A stretch of 64,000 bases of DNA from Geothrix sp. 21YS21S-2 (GCF_030846775.1 NZ_CP132910.1:2762001-2826000), one strand, 5' to 3'. Positions 18,313 through 23,221 are shown, numbered from the stretch's first letter. Notes: a model not told the origin generated them from the letters alone. A program made the numbers and translations.

Positions 18313-18401
18313 GACCTATTCATCGTCAAAATAGAATATGAAATGAGGGATGTTAGTTTTTTTCAAAATTGATGTTTGCACATGCAATAACCTGCGGGTA
18401 G

Positions 18402-18424
18402 CTTGAAGAACCAAGATCTTCAAG
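18402..18424 (+). other. Inverted repeat in AT-rich leader of the cytochrome operon
   Basis: CTTGAAGA (18402-18409) and TCTTCAAG (18417-18424) form a perfect eight-base stem with a seven-base loop. It lies in an AT-rich 183-base gap between the methyltransferase and the multiheme cytochrome gene. The stem is GC-poor and not followed by a clear T run, so a regulator site or leader hairpin is as likely as a terminator. A smaller palindrome, TTGCA-CA-TGCAA, sits at 18376-18387. Confidence 0.4.
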
Positions 18425-18495
18425 ATTTTGCTAATCGATGGATCCCGGAATCCCGATCAGCACTTCATAGCACCCTTCCAGGAGTACCCCGGGCC

Positions 18496-21159
18496 ATGGT
18501 CAAACGTGTGCGTTTCAGGTTAATGATTAGATCATTAATTCAGAAGCTCCCCGCCGGGCTCGTCCTGCTGCCCCTCCTGCCGATCCTCCTGGCCGTGGGC
18601 TGCGGAAGCGGCTCCGCCGCCGCCAAGGGGAACTACCACCCCAAGGGCTGGCTGGGCGTCCATCAGGGGCAGGCCCTGGCCGACCTCGCCCGCTGCAGGA
18701 CCTGCCACGAGATGACCGTCCTCAAGGTGGGCAGCAGCATCCCCAACTGCATGACGGCGGACTGCCACCACGGCACCGTTCCCGGCTTCAGCCTGGCCGC
18801 CTCCCACGGCCTGCGGGCCAAGTCCGCCCAGGACGCCACGGGCGGGGGCCTCGCGTCCTGCCAGACCTGCCACGGGGCGGACTTCGCCGGCGGCGGTTCC
18901 GCGGTGTCCTGCAAGAGCTGCCACGGCGTCCCCGCGCCGCACCCCGCCAGGCCCTGGAATGATGCGGCCGGCCTCACCCACAGCACCACCGATCCCGCCA
19001 ACGCCGCGGTGTGCGCCCAGTGCCACCTGGCGGGTTCGGCCAGCAATCCCGCCGGGCATCCCGCCCAGTCCGCGGCCGCCGGCGCCGTGCCCTCCTGCTT
19101 CAACAACACCCTGTGCCACGGCGCGGCCGCCGCGCCCCACCCGCTGGGAGCCGCGTGGCGCGACGCCGCCAGCAGCGCCTTCCACGGCTTCCAGGCCAAG
19201 CAGAACCTGGTGTACTGCCAGTCCTGCCACGGCATTCCCGGCACCACGTCCTTCGGCGGCGGCTCCGTCTCCACGGCCTGCTCGGCCTGCCACACCGCGG
19301 CGGGGGCCCACTCCACCGTCTGGAGCGCGGCGCCCGTGGACACCTTCCCGGGCTACGTGCCCTCCCACCGCAACGCCCAGAACCGGGACCTGGCCTGCCC
19401 CCTCTGCCACGACTACACCCGGGGCCGCACCGCGCCGCTGCCGGCCGCTCCCAGCTGCTTCGCCGCTTCCTCCAACGCCGTGGCCTGCCACGCCAACGGC
19501 CCCGGCCAGGCCAACCACCCGGTGCCCTTCCAGGGTTCGCTCCACACCGCGGCCACCCAGACCTCCTTCAGCGCCGACTGCGCCACCTGCCACGCCGTGA
19601 CGGGCGCTTCCCCGCTGACGGGCGCGCCCAGCTGCGCCACCTGCCACGTGGCCGGTTCGCCCCTGGCCCGGACCTCCTGCACCTCCTGCCACGGCAGGCC
19701 CCCCACGGGGACCTCCTTCCCCGACGTGGCGGGCTCCCACGCCATTCACGAGGCCCTGGCGGGGGTGACGGGCCTGTGCTCCACCTGCCACAACACCTAC
19801 GACTCCGGCTCCCTGGAGCACTACAACCGCGCCAACGCCAGGCCGGGCCTGGGCACCGCCACCCAGCCCGCACCCGTGTCCCTGCTGGCGAGCTTCAACG
19901 CCAAGGCCGGCACCGCCGCCCTCAATCCCACGGCGCTCACCTGCTCCAGCGTGAGCTGCCACGGCGGCATCCCCACCCCGGCCTGGGGCAGGGCCACCAT
20001 CGACGTCAACTCCGATCCCGGCTGCCGCCAGTGCCACCAGGTGGGCACGGCCCAGGCCACGCCCGAGAACAACGCCGCCTGGTCCGGCCTCCACAGCTTC
20101 CACCTGGCCTCCGGCGTGGGCGCCCTGTGCACCGACTGCCACGGCATGGCCAACGGCACGCCCGGGGCCGCCAACCACTTCGCCCACCTGGACACGCCCC
20201 AGATGGAGGGCCCCGCCAGCGACACCATCCTCCTGCTGGGGAGCACGGCCAACACCTACGACCCGGTCAACCAGAACTGCACCGTGACCTGCCACAGCCA
20301 CGTGCACGCCGCCTCCTCCTGGAAGGGCGGCCCCAGCCACCCGGTGCCCTACCTGGGCACGGGCCACACCGGCGCCGGCAGCCAGACCGCCTTCAACGCC
20401 AACTGCTCCAGCTGCCACGCGGTGACGGGCACGTCCCCGGTGTCCACGGCGCCCCTGTGCAGCGTCTGCCACCAGGCGGGCTCCCCGCTCACGGTGGCCA
20501 ACTGCGCCTCCTGCCACGGCAGGCCCCCGGCGGCCGCCGCCTTCCCCGACGTCGCCGGGGCCCACGCCAGGCACAATGCCCTCGCGGGCGTCGCCGCCCA
20601 GTGCGGGGTCTGCCACACGAACTACGACGCCGGGACCCCGAACCACTACACCTACGCCAACGCCCGCCCCGGCGCCGACACGCTCCGGGTGCCGCCCGCG
20701 CCCACGGGCTTCTCGCCCACCTACAACGCGAAGGCCGGCGCCGCAGCCTTCGCTCCCGCCACCCTCACCTGTTCCAACGTGAGCTGCCACGGGGCCCTGT
20801 CGGCACCCAACTGGCGAACCGGGACCCTGGACTCCGCCGGGGCCACGGGCGACGCCGGCTGCCGCGCCTGCCACTCCCGGGGCACGTCCCTGGGCGTGCC
20901 GGAGAACAACAGCTACTATTCCGGCCACCACGGCACGCACCTGGGTTCGGAGGTGGCCGCCAAGTGCACCGACTGCCACGCCATGGCCAACGGCACGCCC
21001 GGGGCCCTGGCCCACTTCACCCGCCTGAACACCGCCGCCATGGAAGGCCCGGCCGGCGACACGATCCAGTACCTGGGCAGCCGCTCGGTCTACAACGCGT
21101 CCAACCGCACCTGCACCCTCACCTGCCACGGCGAGAACCACGCCAACCGGTCCTGGTAG
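18496..21159 (+). CDS. Multiheme c-type cytochrome lipoprotein (CxxCH plus CxxxxCH type)
   Basis: An 887-residue exported cytochrome with a signal ending in a lipobox (LAVGC), so probably lipid-anchored. I count 19 CxxCH heme sites. Six further cysteine pairs before histidine have wider spacing: three CX4CH, one CX5CH and two CX3CH. This pattern matches the Geobacter-type CxxxxCH/CxxCH domain. The C-terminal two thirds are a tandem duplication of about 250-275 residues. The ATG at 18496 follows AGGAG; the ATG at 18523 is possible and also precedes the signal. It heads a four-gene unit with a monoheme cytochrome, a barrel and a membrane cytochrome. It probably carries electrons across or outside the outer membrane. 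Confidence 0.88.
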   Translation: MVKRVRFRLMIRSLIQKLPAGLVLLPLLPILLAVGCGSGSAAAKGNYHPKGWLGVHQGQALADLARCRTCHEMTVLKVGSSIPNCMTADCHHGTVPGFSLAASHGLRAKSAQDATGGGLASCQTCHGADFAGGGSAVSCKSCHGVPAPHPARPWNDAAGLTHSTTDPANAAVCAQCHLAGSASNPAGHPAQSAAAGAVPSCFNNTLCHGAAAAPHPLGAAWRDAASSAFHGFQAKQNLVYCQSCHGIPGTTSFGGGSVSTACSACHTAAGAHSTVWSAAPVDTFPGYVPSHRNAQNRDLACPLCHDYTRGRTAPLPAAPSCFAASSNAVACHANGPGQANHPVPFQGSLHTAATQTSFSADCATCHAVTGASPLTGAPSCATCHVAGSPLARTSCTSCHGRPPTGTSFPDVAGSHAIHEALAGVTGLCSTCHNTYDSGSLEHYNRANARPGLGTATQPAPVSLLASFNAKAGTAALNPTALTCSSVSCHGGIPTPAWGRATIDVNSDPGCRQCHQVGTAQATPENNAAWSGLHSFHLASGVGALCTDCHGMANGTPGAANHFAHLDTPQMEGPASDTILLLGSTANTYDPVNQNCTVTCHSHVHAASSWKGGPSHPVPYLGTGHTGAGSQTAFNANCSSCHAVTGTSPVSTAPLCSVCHQAGSPLTVANCASCHGRPPAAAAFPDVAGAHARHNALAGVAAQCGVCHTNYDAGTPNHYTYANARPGADTLRVPPAPTGFSPTYNAKAGAAAFAPATLTCSNVSCHGALSAPNWRTGTLDSAGATGDAGCRACHSRGTSLGVPENNSYYSGHHGTHLGSEVAAKCTDCHAMANGTPGALAHFTRLNTAAMEGPAGDTIQYLGSRSVYNASNRTCTLTCHGENHANRSW
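19579..21156 (+). repeat. Internal tandem duplication in the multiheme cytochrome
   Basis: Two in-frame copies, 19579-20403 and 20404-21156, align at the protein level throughout. Each opens with C-x-x-CHAVTG, continues with CxxCHGRPP, FPDVAG, a CX4CH site, PENN, CTDCH plus MANGTPGA and a CX3CH site. Six CxxCH plus one CX4CH and one CX3CH occur in each copy. The first copy carries an extra linker at its end. Confidence 0.8.
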
Positions 21160-21180
21160 GCCGCATTCCAAGGAGATTCC

Positions 21181-21534
21181 ATGCCCTTCCCACGCCTCGC
21201 TCTCCTCGTCCTCCTCTGCGGAGCGTCCCTGGCCGCCCAGAGCAGGAAGGAGGCCCCGCCCTTCGGCGGCGACTACCCCAAGTACTGGCTGGACGTGTGC
21301 GCCCGCTGCCACGGCGTGAACGGCAACGGCCGCGACAACGCCGGCCAGCAGCTGCCCGACAACGGCTTCGATTTCACCGACAGCCGCAAGGCCGGGCGGA
21401 AGAAGGATTCCGACTGGGTCCGCATCACCCTGGAAGGCAAGGAGAAGATGCCGGCCTTCAAGGGCAAGATGACCCCCGAGCAGGCCCAGAAGATGATCAC
21501 CGACATCATCCGTCCCTTCGGCGCCAAGCACTAG
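21181..21534 (+). CDS. Small monoheme c-type cytochrome
   Basis: The 117-residue periplasmic cytochrome has a cleavable signal (to SLAAQS) and one heme site, CARCH, near residue 40. A downstream methionine in KEKMPAFKGKM is a candidate axial ligand, as in class I cytochromes. AAGGAG lies five bases before the ATG. It follows the multiheme lipoprotein by 21 bases and is followed after ten bases by the barrel gene, so cotranscription is very likely. It may shuttle electrons between the inner-membrane cytochrome and the multiheme protein. Confidence 0.88.
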   Translation: MPFPRLALLVLLCGASLAAQSRKEAPPFGGDYPKYWLDVCARCHGVNGNGRDNAGQQLPDNGFDFTDSRKAGRKKDSDWVRITLEGKEKMPAFKGKMTPEQAQKMITDIIRPFGAKH

Positions 21535-21544
21535 GAGGCTGTCC

Positions 21545-22327
21545 ATGACCCCATGCCTGCGAACCGCCGCCCTGTGCCTGGCCTCGAGCCTCCTCTTCGG
21601 CGAGTCATCCGAATACCCCCTGGGGGTCAACCTGCCCACGGGCGACATGATGCAGTTCTGGGACCTGGGGATCGCCTTCACCCACCGCTTCTCCACGCCC
21701 GCCTCCGGCCACGGCAAGGACGCCTACGGCCTGGACGGCTACGCCTATCCGGGCTTCGGCGTGGACTTCGGGTTCAAGCCCGTCAAGGGCCTCAACGTGA
21801 TCCTCTACCGCACGGCGGACAACAAGACCTTCACGTTCGCCCTCCAGCAGCGGCTCCTCAACGCCGACGTCGTGCGCATGGCCCTCCGGGCCGAGCGGTT
21901 CGACGAGGTGGTCAGGCGCACCGAGACCCCCCTCGGCACCGTGGGCCTCACCGGCGCCGCCTGCCAGCTGCCCACGGAATTCTTCCTCGGGGACTTCGGG
22001 ATCCTGACGGTGGTTCCCACCTGGCTGAGCCGCACCACCACCCAGAAGAAGGCCGTCTTCACGGCGGGAGCGGGACTGCGCATCGATTTCACCGACAAGC
22101 TGGGCTTCGTGGCCGAGTACTACCCGCGCCCCCCGAAGATCGACAAGGCCTTCAAGCCGGGCTACGCCGCGGGCTTCACCTACAAGACCTTCAAGCACCG
22201 GTTCACCCTGGTGGGCACCAACACCTCGGGCACCACGGCCAACCAGGTCCTGTCCGGGGACTACGGCGGGGGCGCGCGCTCCACGGGCCAGTGGGCCCTG
22301 GGGTTCAACGTCGCCCGGACCTTCTGA
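21545..22327 (+). CDS. DUF5777-like outer-membrane beta-barrel protein
   Basis: The 260-residue protein has a short signal and alternating hydrophobic/polar strands throughout. It ends in the outer-membrane signature FNVARTF. Segments such as PTGDMMQFWDLGIAFTHRF and a PGFGVDFGFKP strand resemble DUF5777 family barrels. It sits inside a cytochrome operon, a position taken by porins in known porin-cytochrome conduits, so it may form the outer-membrane pore of this module. That role is inference; at 260 residues the barrel would be smaller than the porins of described conduits. Confidence 0.75.
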   Translation: MTPCLRTAALCLASSLLFGESSEYPLGVNLPTGDMMQFWDLGIAFTHRFSTPASGHGKDAYGLDGYAYPGFGVDFGFKPVKGLNVILYRTADNKTFTFALQQRLLNADVVRMALRAERFDEVVRRTETPLGTVGLTGAACQLPTEFFLGDFGILTVVPTWLSRTTTQKKAVFTAGAGLRIDFTDKLGFVAEYYPRPPKIDKAFKPGYAAGFTYKTFKHRFTLVGTNTSGTTANQVLSGDYGGGARSTGQWALGFNVARTF

Positions 22328-22330
22328 GTG

Positions 22331-23221
22331 ATGGGAAGCGCGCTCTTCGAGATCTTCTCCCGCGAACACCCCGCCCTGGTGCACGTGCCCCTGGGCATGG
22401 TCGTGGTGCTGCCGGTCATGATGGTGGCCGCCCACCGCTCCCGCTACCCGCAGACCTGGCGGCGCATGGCCTTCCGGGTCGCCCTGCTGGCCCTGGGGGG
22501 GAGCCTGCTCACCCTGCTGAGCGGCTTCTACTGGGCCCGGCTCCTCAACCTCATCCCCACGGGCGCCTTCCTCCCGGTCGTGGCCTCCCAGGGCCAGGCG
22601 CTCCAGCGCATCCTGCGCACGCACGAGCTCACGGCCCTGGCCGGCTTCGGCGTGGGGCTCCTGAACCTCCTGCTGCTGCGCAAGTCCTACCACGAGCCCG
22701 ACCGCATGCGGTGGACCACCGCGTGCCTGGCCGGGACCATCCTGTGGGCGGGCACCTGGGGCTACGTGGGCCGGCTGGGCGGGGTCATGGTCTTCGGCAG
22801 CGCCGAGACCAACAAGGCCGCGGCCGACGCCATCAACGCCAAGAAGAACGACGCCGAGGCGGAGCTCCCCGTCCGGGCCCTGGACTATGCCAGCCTGGAG
22901 CCGCTGCAGGCCGCCCCCTTCCGCAGCAGGGCCCACGGGGACCGCCTGGCCCGCACCTGGGTCACCGCCTCGGGAAGCGACGCCCTTGCGGCCGGCAAGG
23001 CCCTGCCCGTGGGCGCCTATGCGGTCATGAGCACCGAGGCCAAAGGCGGCCCGGGGCCCCTTTTCATGCGGGAGGCCAAGGCCGACGGAACCCAGGCCTT
23101 CGCCCTCTACTGGCCCCGGATCCCGGAGGCGGACCGCAAGGACTACGGCGGGGAGGACTTCGTCTACTGGCGCAGCCCGGCCCGGGGGCTGGAGACCTGT
23201 GCCGGGTGCCACGCTAGGTAA
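22331..23221 (+). CDS. Membrane cytochrome: DUF2231-like membrane domain with C-terminal P460-like heme domain
   Basis: The 296-residue protein begins with HPALVHVPLG, typical of DUF2231 membrane proteins. Four hydrophobic helices lie within residues 15-150 (near 16-32, 45-70, 93-113 and 122-145). The remaining 140 residues are periplasmic and end in DFVYWRSP...CAGCHAR, a heme site at the extreme C-terminus as in cytochrome P460-like domains. An adjacent GTG at 22328 is less likely than the ATG. It closes the four-gene cytochrome unit and could be its quinol- or periplasm-facing partner. The P460 assignment rests on layout, not on identified cross-link residues. Confidence 0.7.
   Translation: MGSALFEIFSREHPALVHVPLGMVVVLPVMMVAAHRSRYPQTWRRMAFRVALLALGGSLLTLLSGFYWARLLNLIPTGAFLPVVASQGQALQRILRTHELTALAGFGVGLLNLLLLRKSYHEPDRMRWTTACLAGTILWAGTWGYVGRLGGVMVFGSAETNKAAADAINAKKNDAEAELPVRALDYASLEPLQAAPFRSRAHGDRLARTWVTASGSDALAAGKALPVGAYAVMSTEAKGGPGPLFMREAKADGTQAFALYWPRIPEADRKDYGGEDFVYWRSPARGLETCAGCHAR

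Follow-up and report, generated by a model that had tools for sequence, protein, structure and literature searches.

A conserved cassette of Holophagaceae encoding a multiheme cytochrome, a DUF5777 barrel and a DUF2231 protein, as a candidate for extracellular electron transfer

We analyzed a 64,000-nucleotide window of Geothrix sp. 21YS21S-2 (NZ_CP132910.1; positions 2,762,001-2,826,000 of a single-contig genome of 5.25 Mb). It carries, at 18496-23221 on the + strand, a cassette of four genes encoding a 25-site multiheme cytochrome lipoprotein (MHC), a monoheme cytochrome c, a DUF5777 beta-barrel and a DUF2231 membrane protein. This set is conserved in soil Holophagaceae, is undescribed, and probably moves electrons out of the cell. 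In our preferred reading, to which we give about an even chance (0.5), the cassette serves extracellular electron transfer in Holophagaceae, and its barrel is a narrow redox barrel or an anchor of the MHC, and not the sheath of a heme chain. Respiration of iron and electrodes in soils and sediments is known from Geothrix and its relatives, but their outer-membrane electron exit is poorly described; the cassette is a candidate for that exit.

The four-gene cassette and its conservation

The intergenic gaps are 21, 10 and 0 bases, in gene order, and good ribosome-binding sites precede the second and third genes. The features are:

18313..18495, + strand: A+T-richer intergenic leader, 5' of the cassette (direct reading of the sequence)
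18496..21159, + strand: MHC lipoprotein, 887 residues, 25 heme sites
18571..19149, + strand: MHC head, residues 26-218 (BLASTP to the pentaheme protein of an Ext-like conduit)
18601..18603, + strand: predicted lipidated Cys36 in the lipobox LLAVGC (direct reading; the lipobox recurs among homologues)
19516..20334, + strand: octaheme module 1, with six CxxCH, one CX4CH and one CX3CH (alignment to module 2)
20335..21156, + strand: octaheme module 2 (alignment to module 1)
21181..21534, + strand: monoheme class-I cytochrome c, 117 residues, with a Sec-type signal peptide (Cytochrome_CBB3, PF13442, 34.7 bits)
21298-21312, + strand: CARCH heme site of the monoheme cytochrome c
21545..22327, + strand: DUF5777 outer-membrane beta-barrel, 260 residues, 12 predicted strands, C-terminal Phe (PF19089, model and fold search)
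22328..23221, + strand: DUF2231 inner-membrane protein with a C-terminal heme domain
22367..22798, + strand: four-helix DUF2231 part, residues 14-157, with invariant His14, His19 and His99
22844..23218, + strand: P460/c'-beta-like heme domain (weak profile and fold similarity)
23198-23212, + strand: CAGCH heme site of the P460/c'-beta-like domain

A class-wide search covered 93 genomes. Close homologues of the fourth protein (DUF2231-P460) were found in 38 of them, and 31 of these 38 show the order MHC, cytochrome c, barrel and DUF2231/P460 on one strand. Six more genomes with the four-gene order were found in a second collection, giving 37 genomes from five Holophagaceae genera; at the locus of a thirty-eighth (L139) the contig ends within the cytochrome gene. 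Species with the cassette include Geothrix campi, G. limicola, G. oryzisoli, G. terrae, G. paludis and G. rubra. The genes flanking the cassette vary between genera, and therefore the cassette itself is the conserved unit. Furthermore, the cassette-linked barrels form one clade against the lone barrels (100/100).

An earlier note on this DNA had claimed four tightly packed genes and a 19-plus-6-site MHC, and had set conservation of the gene order as a check. All four open reading frames, their coordinates, strand and packing were confirmed; the count was borne out, with 19 CxxCH and six other sites, and the order is strongly kept across the 37 genomes.

Genes for a propeller-type sensor histidine kinase and a LuxR-type regulator lie upstream of the Geothrix cassette, in divergent orientation. 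The genome of the window contains a second cassette at ~1,000,900-1,006,935 (L064 5896-11935), with a 29-CxxCH MHC that has a duplicated head, and a barrel 96% identical to that of the window. Two further loci were recorded: in one relative (L068 2451-8783) the cassette adjoins cbb3-type oxidase genes with a seven-heme CcoP-like protein, and a metagenome-assembled genome titled Bacillota (L162, JAJTBC010000172.1), probably a mislabelled bin, carries a Holophagaceae-type MHC and barrel.

The multiheme cytochrome and its relatives in an Ext-like conduit

The 25 heme sites of the MHC are 19 CxxCH, three CX4CH, two CX3CH and one CX5CH; the protein also shows one CX9CH stretch, the use of which is doubtful. 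Residue-shuffled versions contain a mean of 0.2 and a maximum of 2 CxxCH. The MHC matches Cytochrome_C7/c3 in Pfam and the CxxxxCH/CxxCH domain TIGR01904 in NCBIfam, and its lipobox has a counterpart near the N-terminus of most homologues. Its C-terminal part consists of two tandem octaheme modules of 273 residues, 55% identical (E 9e-96), a repeat revealed by comparing the halves of the protein; whole-protein self-BLAST gave the self match only. A profile of the module found one, two, three, four and five copies in homologues with 13, 19, 25, 31 and 37 CxxCH, respectively. The architecture is a head followed by k octaheme modules (k = 1-5), with a CxxCH count of 7 + 6k; homologues outside this series have 10, 11, 14, 16, 22 or 29 CxxCH and partial, diverged or duplicated parts. 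The partner proteins are constant while the number of modules varies. The cassettes thus offer a natural cytochrome series that grows by whole octaheme units, from 13 to 37 CxxCH, in which the effect of length on electron transfer could be measured. Giant solo MHC homologues without a barrel were also found, with 2664 residues and 53 CxxCH (L232 4939-12933), 2126 residues and 40 CxxCH (L228 7060-13440) and 2075 residues and 40 CxxCH (L233 7035-13262). When the MHC, its module, the barrel and the DUF2231-P460 protein were compared with the sequences of all solved structures, no meaningful match was obtained.

The MHC head shares 34-45% identity (BLASTP, E ~1e-22 to 1e-32) with a stand-alone pentaheme lipoprotein of a different gene set, ordered as porin (~460 residues), pentaheme lipoprotein, pentaheme head and decaheme MtrC/MtrF/OmcA-like lipoprotein. 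We call this set Ext-like from its gene layout and from published reports, rather than from an alignment with Geobacter proteins; Holophaga has been reported to carry porin-cytochrome genes of the Ext and Mtr types (PMC7399161; PMC11748539). The Ext-like conduit is present in the genome of the window (~4,113,535-4,119,038; L249) and in G. fermentans, and its porin in 59 of the 93 class genomes. In four genomes, a second porin-pentaheme pair is followed by a 25-CxxCH MHC which is 54-57% identical to that of the window. This position of MHC relatives behind Ext-like porin and pentaheme genes makes it likely that the cassette serves surface electron transfer, and an outer-surface role is our best guess for the MHC of the window from its kinship with the conduit. 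In Geobacter, the outer-surface lipoprotein is the conduit part swapped most often (PMC6148476), and Mesoterricola, a Holophagaceae genus, has been reported to reduce Fe(III) (PMC13064192).

The same kinship bears on another explanation, which we consider rather unlikely: the MHC would be an accessory wire that docks via its pentaheme-like head on the Ext-like conduit, which crosses the outer membrane, and the cytochrome c-DUF5777-DUF2231 core would help in MHC export or anchoring, or do a separate job. The relation of the head to a conduit component, the homologues behind the conduit porin in four genomes, the wide presence of this porin in the class and the existence of giant homologues without any barrel all agree with it; however, the constant partners of the MHC across 37 genomes are DUF5777, cytochrome c and DUF2231-P460, and not the porin.

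The barrel, the membrane partner and the crossing of the outer membrane

The barrel matches DUF5777 (PF19089) with 74.6 bits, the cut-off being 23.1. Its AlphaFold2 model, based on 54 sequences, has a pLDDT (predicted local distance difference test) of 85.4 and a pTM (predicted template modeling score) of 0.82, and 12 strands were counted from the DSSP line. Among the matches listed by the fold search, the top target-normalised scores for natural barrels were those of VhGalP (0.68), an oligogalacturonate porin, and NanC (0.60), and OmpG was first by E-value. The width of the lumen was estimated solely from the number of strands: standard barrel geometry predicts a backbone radius of 10.5-12 Å for 12 strands, in comparison with 15.7-20.9 Å for 18-21 strands and 22.6-25.8 Å for 26 strands. 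For known conduit porins, 18-28 strands are predicted (18-22 and 28 in PMC4245776; also PMC6148476). Judging from the model, a covalently attached heme and its peptide would not fit a 12-strand barrel when side chains are taken into account. R115, E117, E121, E191 and H218 are among the charged strand residues that are invariant.

At the loci of the 37 genomes no periplasmic multiheme cytochrome was found among the cassette genes, which encode only the monoheme cytochrome and the lipoprotein MHC, and MtrB_PioB (PF11854) had no match anywhere in the genome of the window. The modeled barrel does not support the sheathing of a heme chain as in the usual conduits. A classical porin-cytochrome conduit, with a continuous heme chain and a barrel around part of the MHC or of the cytochrome c, is therefore very unlikely in our judgement: its gene content, which recalls a donor in the membrane, a carrier in the periplasm, a pore and a wire on the surface, and the kept synteny are set against 12 strands and a radius of ~11 Å instead of 18-28 strands, nearest folds that are small solute channels, and the missing periplasmic multiheme cytochrome.

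Beyond the cassette, DUF5777 was found in 118 of 396 Acidobacteriota genomes sampled. The loci read were the top-scoring ones and not a random sample. In 20 non-Holophagaceae neighbourhoods no multiheme gene adjoined DUF5777, and small heme-motif lipoproteins or cupredoxins often did; DUF5777 alone was dropped as a marker of multiheme conduits on these counts. In 11 Acidobacteriota genomes (L180-L186, L189, L191, L208 and L210) the barrel forms an in-frame fusion with a preceding heme motif, mostly straight after the signal peptide, and in one genome (L197) it is fused behind a cupredoxin. Lone Holophagaceae barrels lie near a heme-less DUF2231 gene in nine loci, and several also have a cytochrome c nearby. 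All three lone-barrel loci tested contain a Rieske protein (L104 10414-10980, L112 8452-9120 and L069 7062-7607). From fusions and neighbours, the recurrent unit is thus a small barrel with a single-centre electron carrier, accompanied by DUF2231 in Holophagaceae; the cassette of the window has, in addition, the MHC and the heme domain on DUF2231. The cytochrome-DUF5777 fusions suggest contact between the monoheme cytochrome and the barrel, and the single-centre carriers point to a redox barrel in the manner of Cyc2 to which a surface wire has been added. More tentatively, and with considerable doubt, DUF5777 with one single-centre carrier could represent widespread, undescribed narrow redox barrels of Acidobacteriota, a functional parallel of Cyc2 to which Holophagaceae added the octaheme MHC and the heme-bearing DUF2231 partner. 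Among the papers searched, none names DUF5777, and the only one on DUF2231 with cytochromes was an unrelated database paper.

The fourth protein scores 26.1 bits against DUF2231 (PF09990) by hmmscan and 27.6 in the genome search, around the cut-off of 26.4, and 15 of 17 relatives match the family. Four membrane helices and a beta domain are seen in its model (pLDDT 77.8, pTM 0.62). The invariant His14, His19 and His99 are near helix starts, and would face the periplasm if the heme domain does so. PF16694 matches six of the 17 relatives (best E 0.0024), and the best cassette members reach 21-22 bits, under the Pfam cut-off of 27; in hhalign comparisons with true P460 domains from the class, the probability is 85-92% over ~55 columns, and cytochrome c'-beta (7s5o) is among the fold matches (E 0.56, probability 0.95). 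In the genome of the window, a DUF2231-P460 fusion of a second lineage adjoins a divergent YceI gene (L066 8997-10785, ~3.21 Mb).

The P460/c'-beta-like domain is also compatible with periplasmic respiration or detoxification, in which the barrel would admit a small solute such as nitric oxide or hydroxylamine, the P460-like domain or the cytochrome would react with it, and the MHC would be a periplasmic electron store. A barrel fold closest to solute channels, conserved charged residues on its strands, and the cbb3 oxidase genes beside the cassette of L068 go along with this explanation; nevertheless, small-solute chemistry does not readily account for an MHC extended by repeats to as many as 37 CxxCH, and MHC homologues elsewhere come after a conduit porin, and we regard it as quite improbable.

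The conduit proposed in the earlier note is retained in part. Synteny and the link of the MHC family to the Ext-like porin fit its surface wire, but the barrel does not fit a heme-chain pore: porin-cytochrome logic in its usual form is contradicted by the 12-strand model and by the lack of a periplasmic multiheme cytochrome to thread the pore, and a barrel too narrow for a heme chain, which the note had named as grounds for refutation, is what the model shows. The note was right that the cassette families differ from Mtr and Omb/Oma/Omc; its P460-like membrane partner stands as a similarity found by PF16694, hhalign and fold, below the Pfam cut-off.

In the extracellular electron transfer cassette that we favour, the inner-membrane DUF2231-P460 protein would take electrons from the quinol pool or a quinol enzyme and hand them over to the monoheme cytochrome c, which, according to the cytochrome-DUF5777 fusions elsewhere in the phylum, may dock on the barrel. 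The barrel would be a narrow single-heme redox barrel like Cyc2, or an anchor and docking site for the surface MHC. The lipid-anchored MHC, as its Ext-linked relatives suggest, would carry electrons on the outer face to a mineral or electrode, and the number of tandem octaheme modules, itself observed, may tune its length and thereby its reach.

Several points weigh against this reading. In the model, the 12-strand barrel has no room for a heme chain, which leaves the crossing of the outer membrane unexplained, and direct tunnelling between a single heme at the barrel mouth and the opposite side would have to span too great a distance. Two answers for the crossing are live, a Cyc2-like single-heme barrel or the use of the Ext-like porin. 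The P460 link of the fourth protein is weak but consistent across three methods. The second lineage of the DUF2231-P460 fusion is present in most Holophagaceae genomes, away from any MHC, and therefore this kind of protein also occurs outside the cassette. The surface location of the MHC, the contacts between the proteins and the direction of electron flow are predictions from sequence and models. Finally, genome searches found no cassette in G. fermentans, an Fe(III) reducer (PMC6295460) that has Ext-like genes; the cassette is therefore an addition to, and not the core of, the iron respiration of the family.

Comparison with known systems

The closest published layout is that of PCC3 from Sideroxydans and Leptothrix (PMC5566968, PMC10734462), in which one cluster encodes a barrel, an inner-membrane protein of ~300 residues and a large surface MHC that is rich in repeats and variable in heme number, and which shows that such MHCs are already known. 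The cassette matches this trait (k = 1-5), with a predicted extracellular location; however, PCC3 has a periplasmic MHC of ~21 or more hemes where the cassette has a monoheme cytochrome, and its inner-membrane protein has five helices and WX3HX13H motifs, which were found in none of the 33 proteins examined here, instead of DUF2231 and a heme domain.

With Geobacter ExtBCD/ExtEFG and the Ext-like conduit of the same genome (PMC6148476), the cassette shares the MHC head and whole MHC homologues, which belong with the porin/pentaheme set in relatives; it differs in the barrel (260 residues for DUF5777, ~460 for the porin) and has no pentaheme lipoprotein gene. Shewanella MtrCAB, MtoAB and PioAB also combine a barrel with a large lipoprotein cytochrome, but the cassette has no periplasmic decaheme, its barrel is far smaller, and its genome has no MtrB_PioB match. 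Among the traits of porin-cytochrome complexes (Mtr/Pcc), the cassette shows neither the 18-28-strand barrel nor the 5-14-heme periplasmic cytochrome; the outer-surface multiheme lipoprotein is predicted from the lipobox of the MHC and its kinship with conduit-linked MHCs.

The C-terminal domain of the fourth protein resembles cytochrome P460/c'-beta (PF16694) in its beta domain, C-terminal CxxCH and weak profile similarity, and differs in scoring below the Pfam cut-off and in its fusion to a DUF2231 membrane part. Cyc2, likened to the cassette by layout, joins an N-terminal monoheme cytochrome domain and a barrel in one polypeptide, an order which distant DUF5777 proteins also show in one chain; the cassette has two separate genes, another barrel family, and the extra MHC and inner-membrane partner. 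DUF5777 may move electrons across the membrane in a manner unlike MtrAB and, if the barrel works with a single heme, the Cyc2 principle would extend to a second barrel family.

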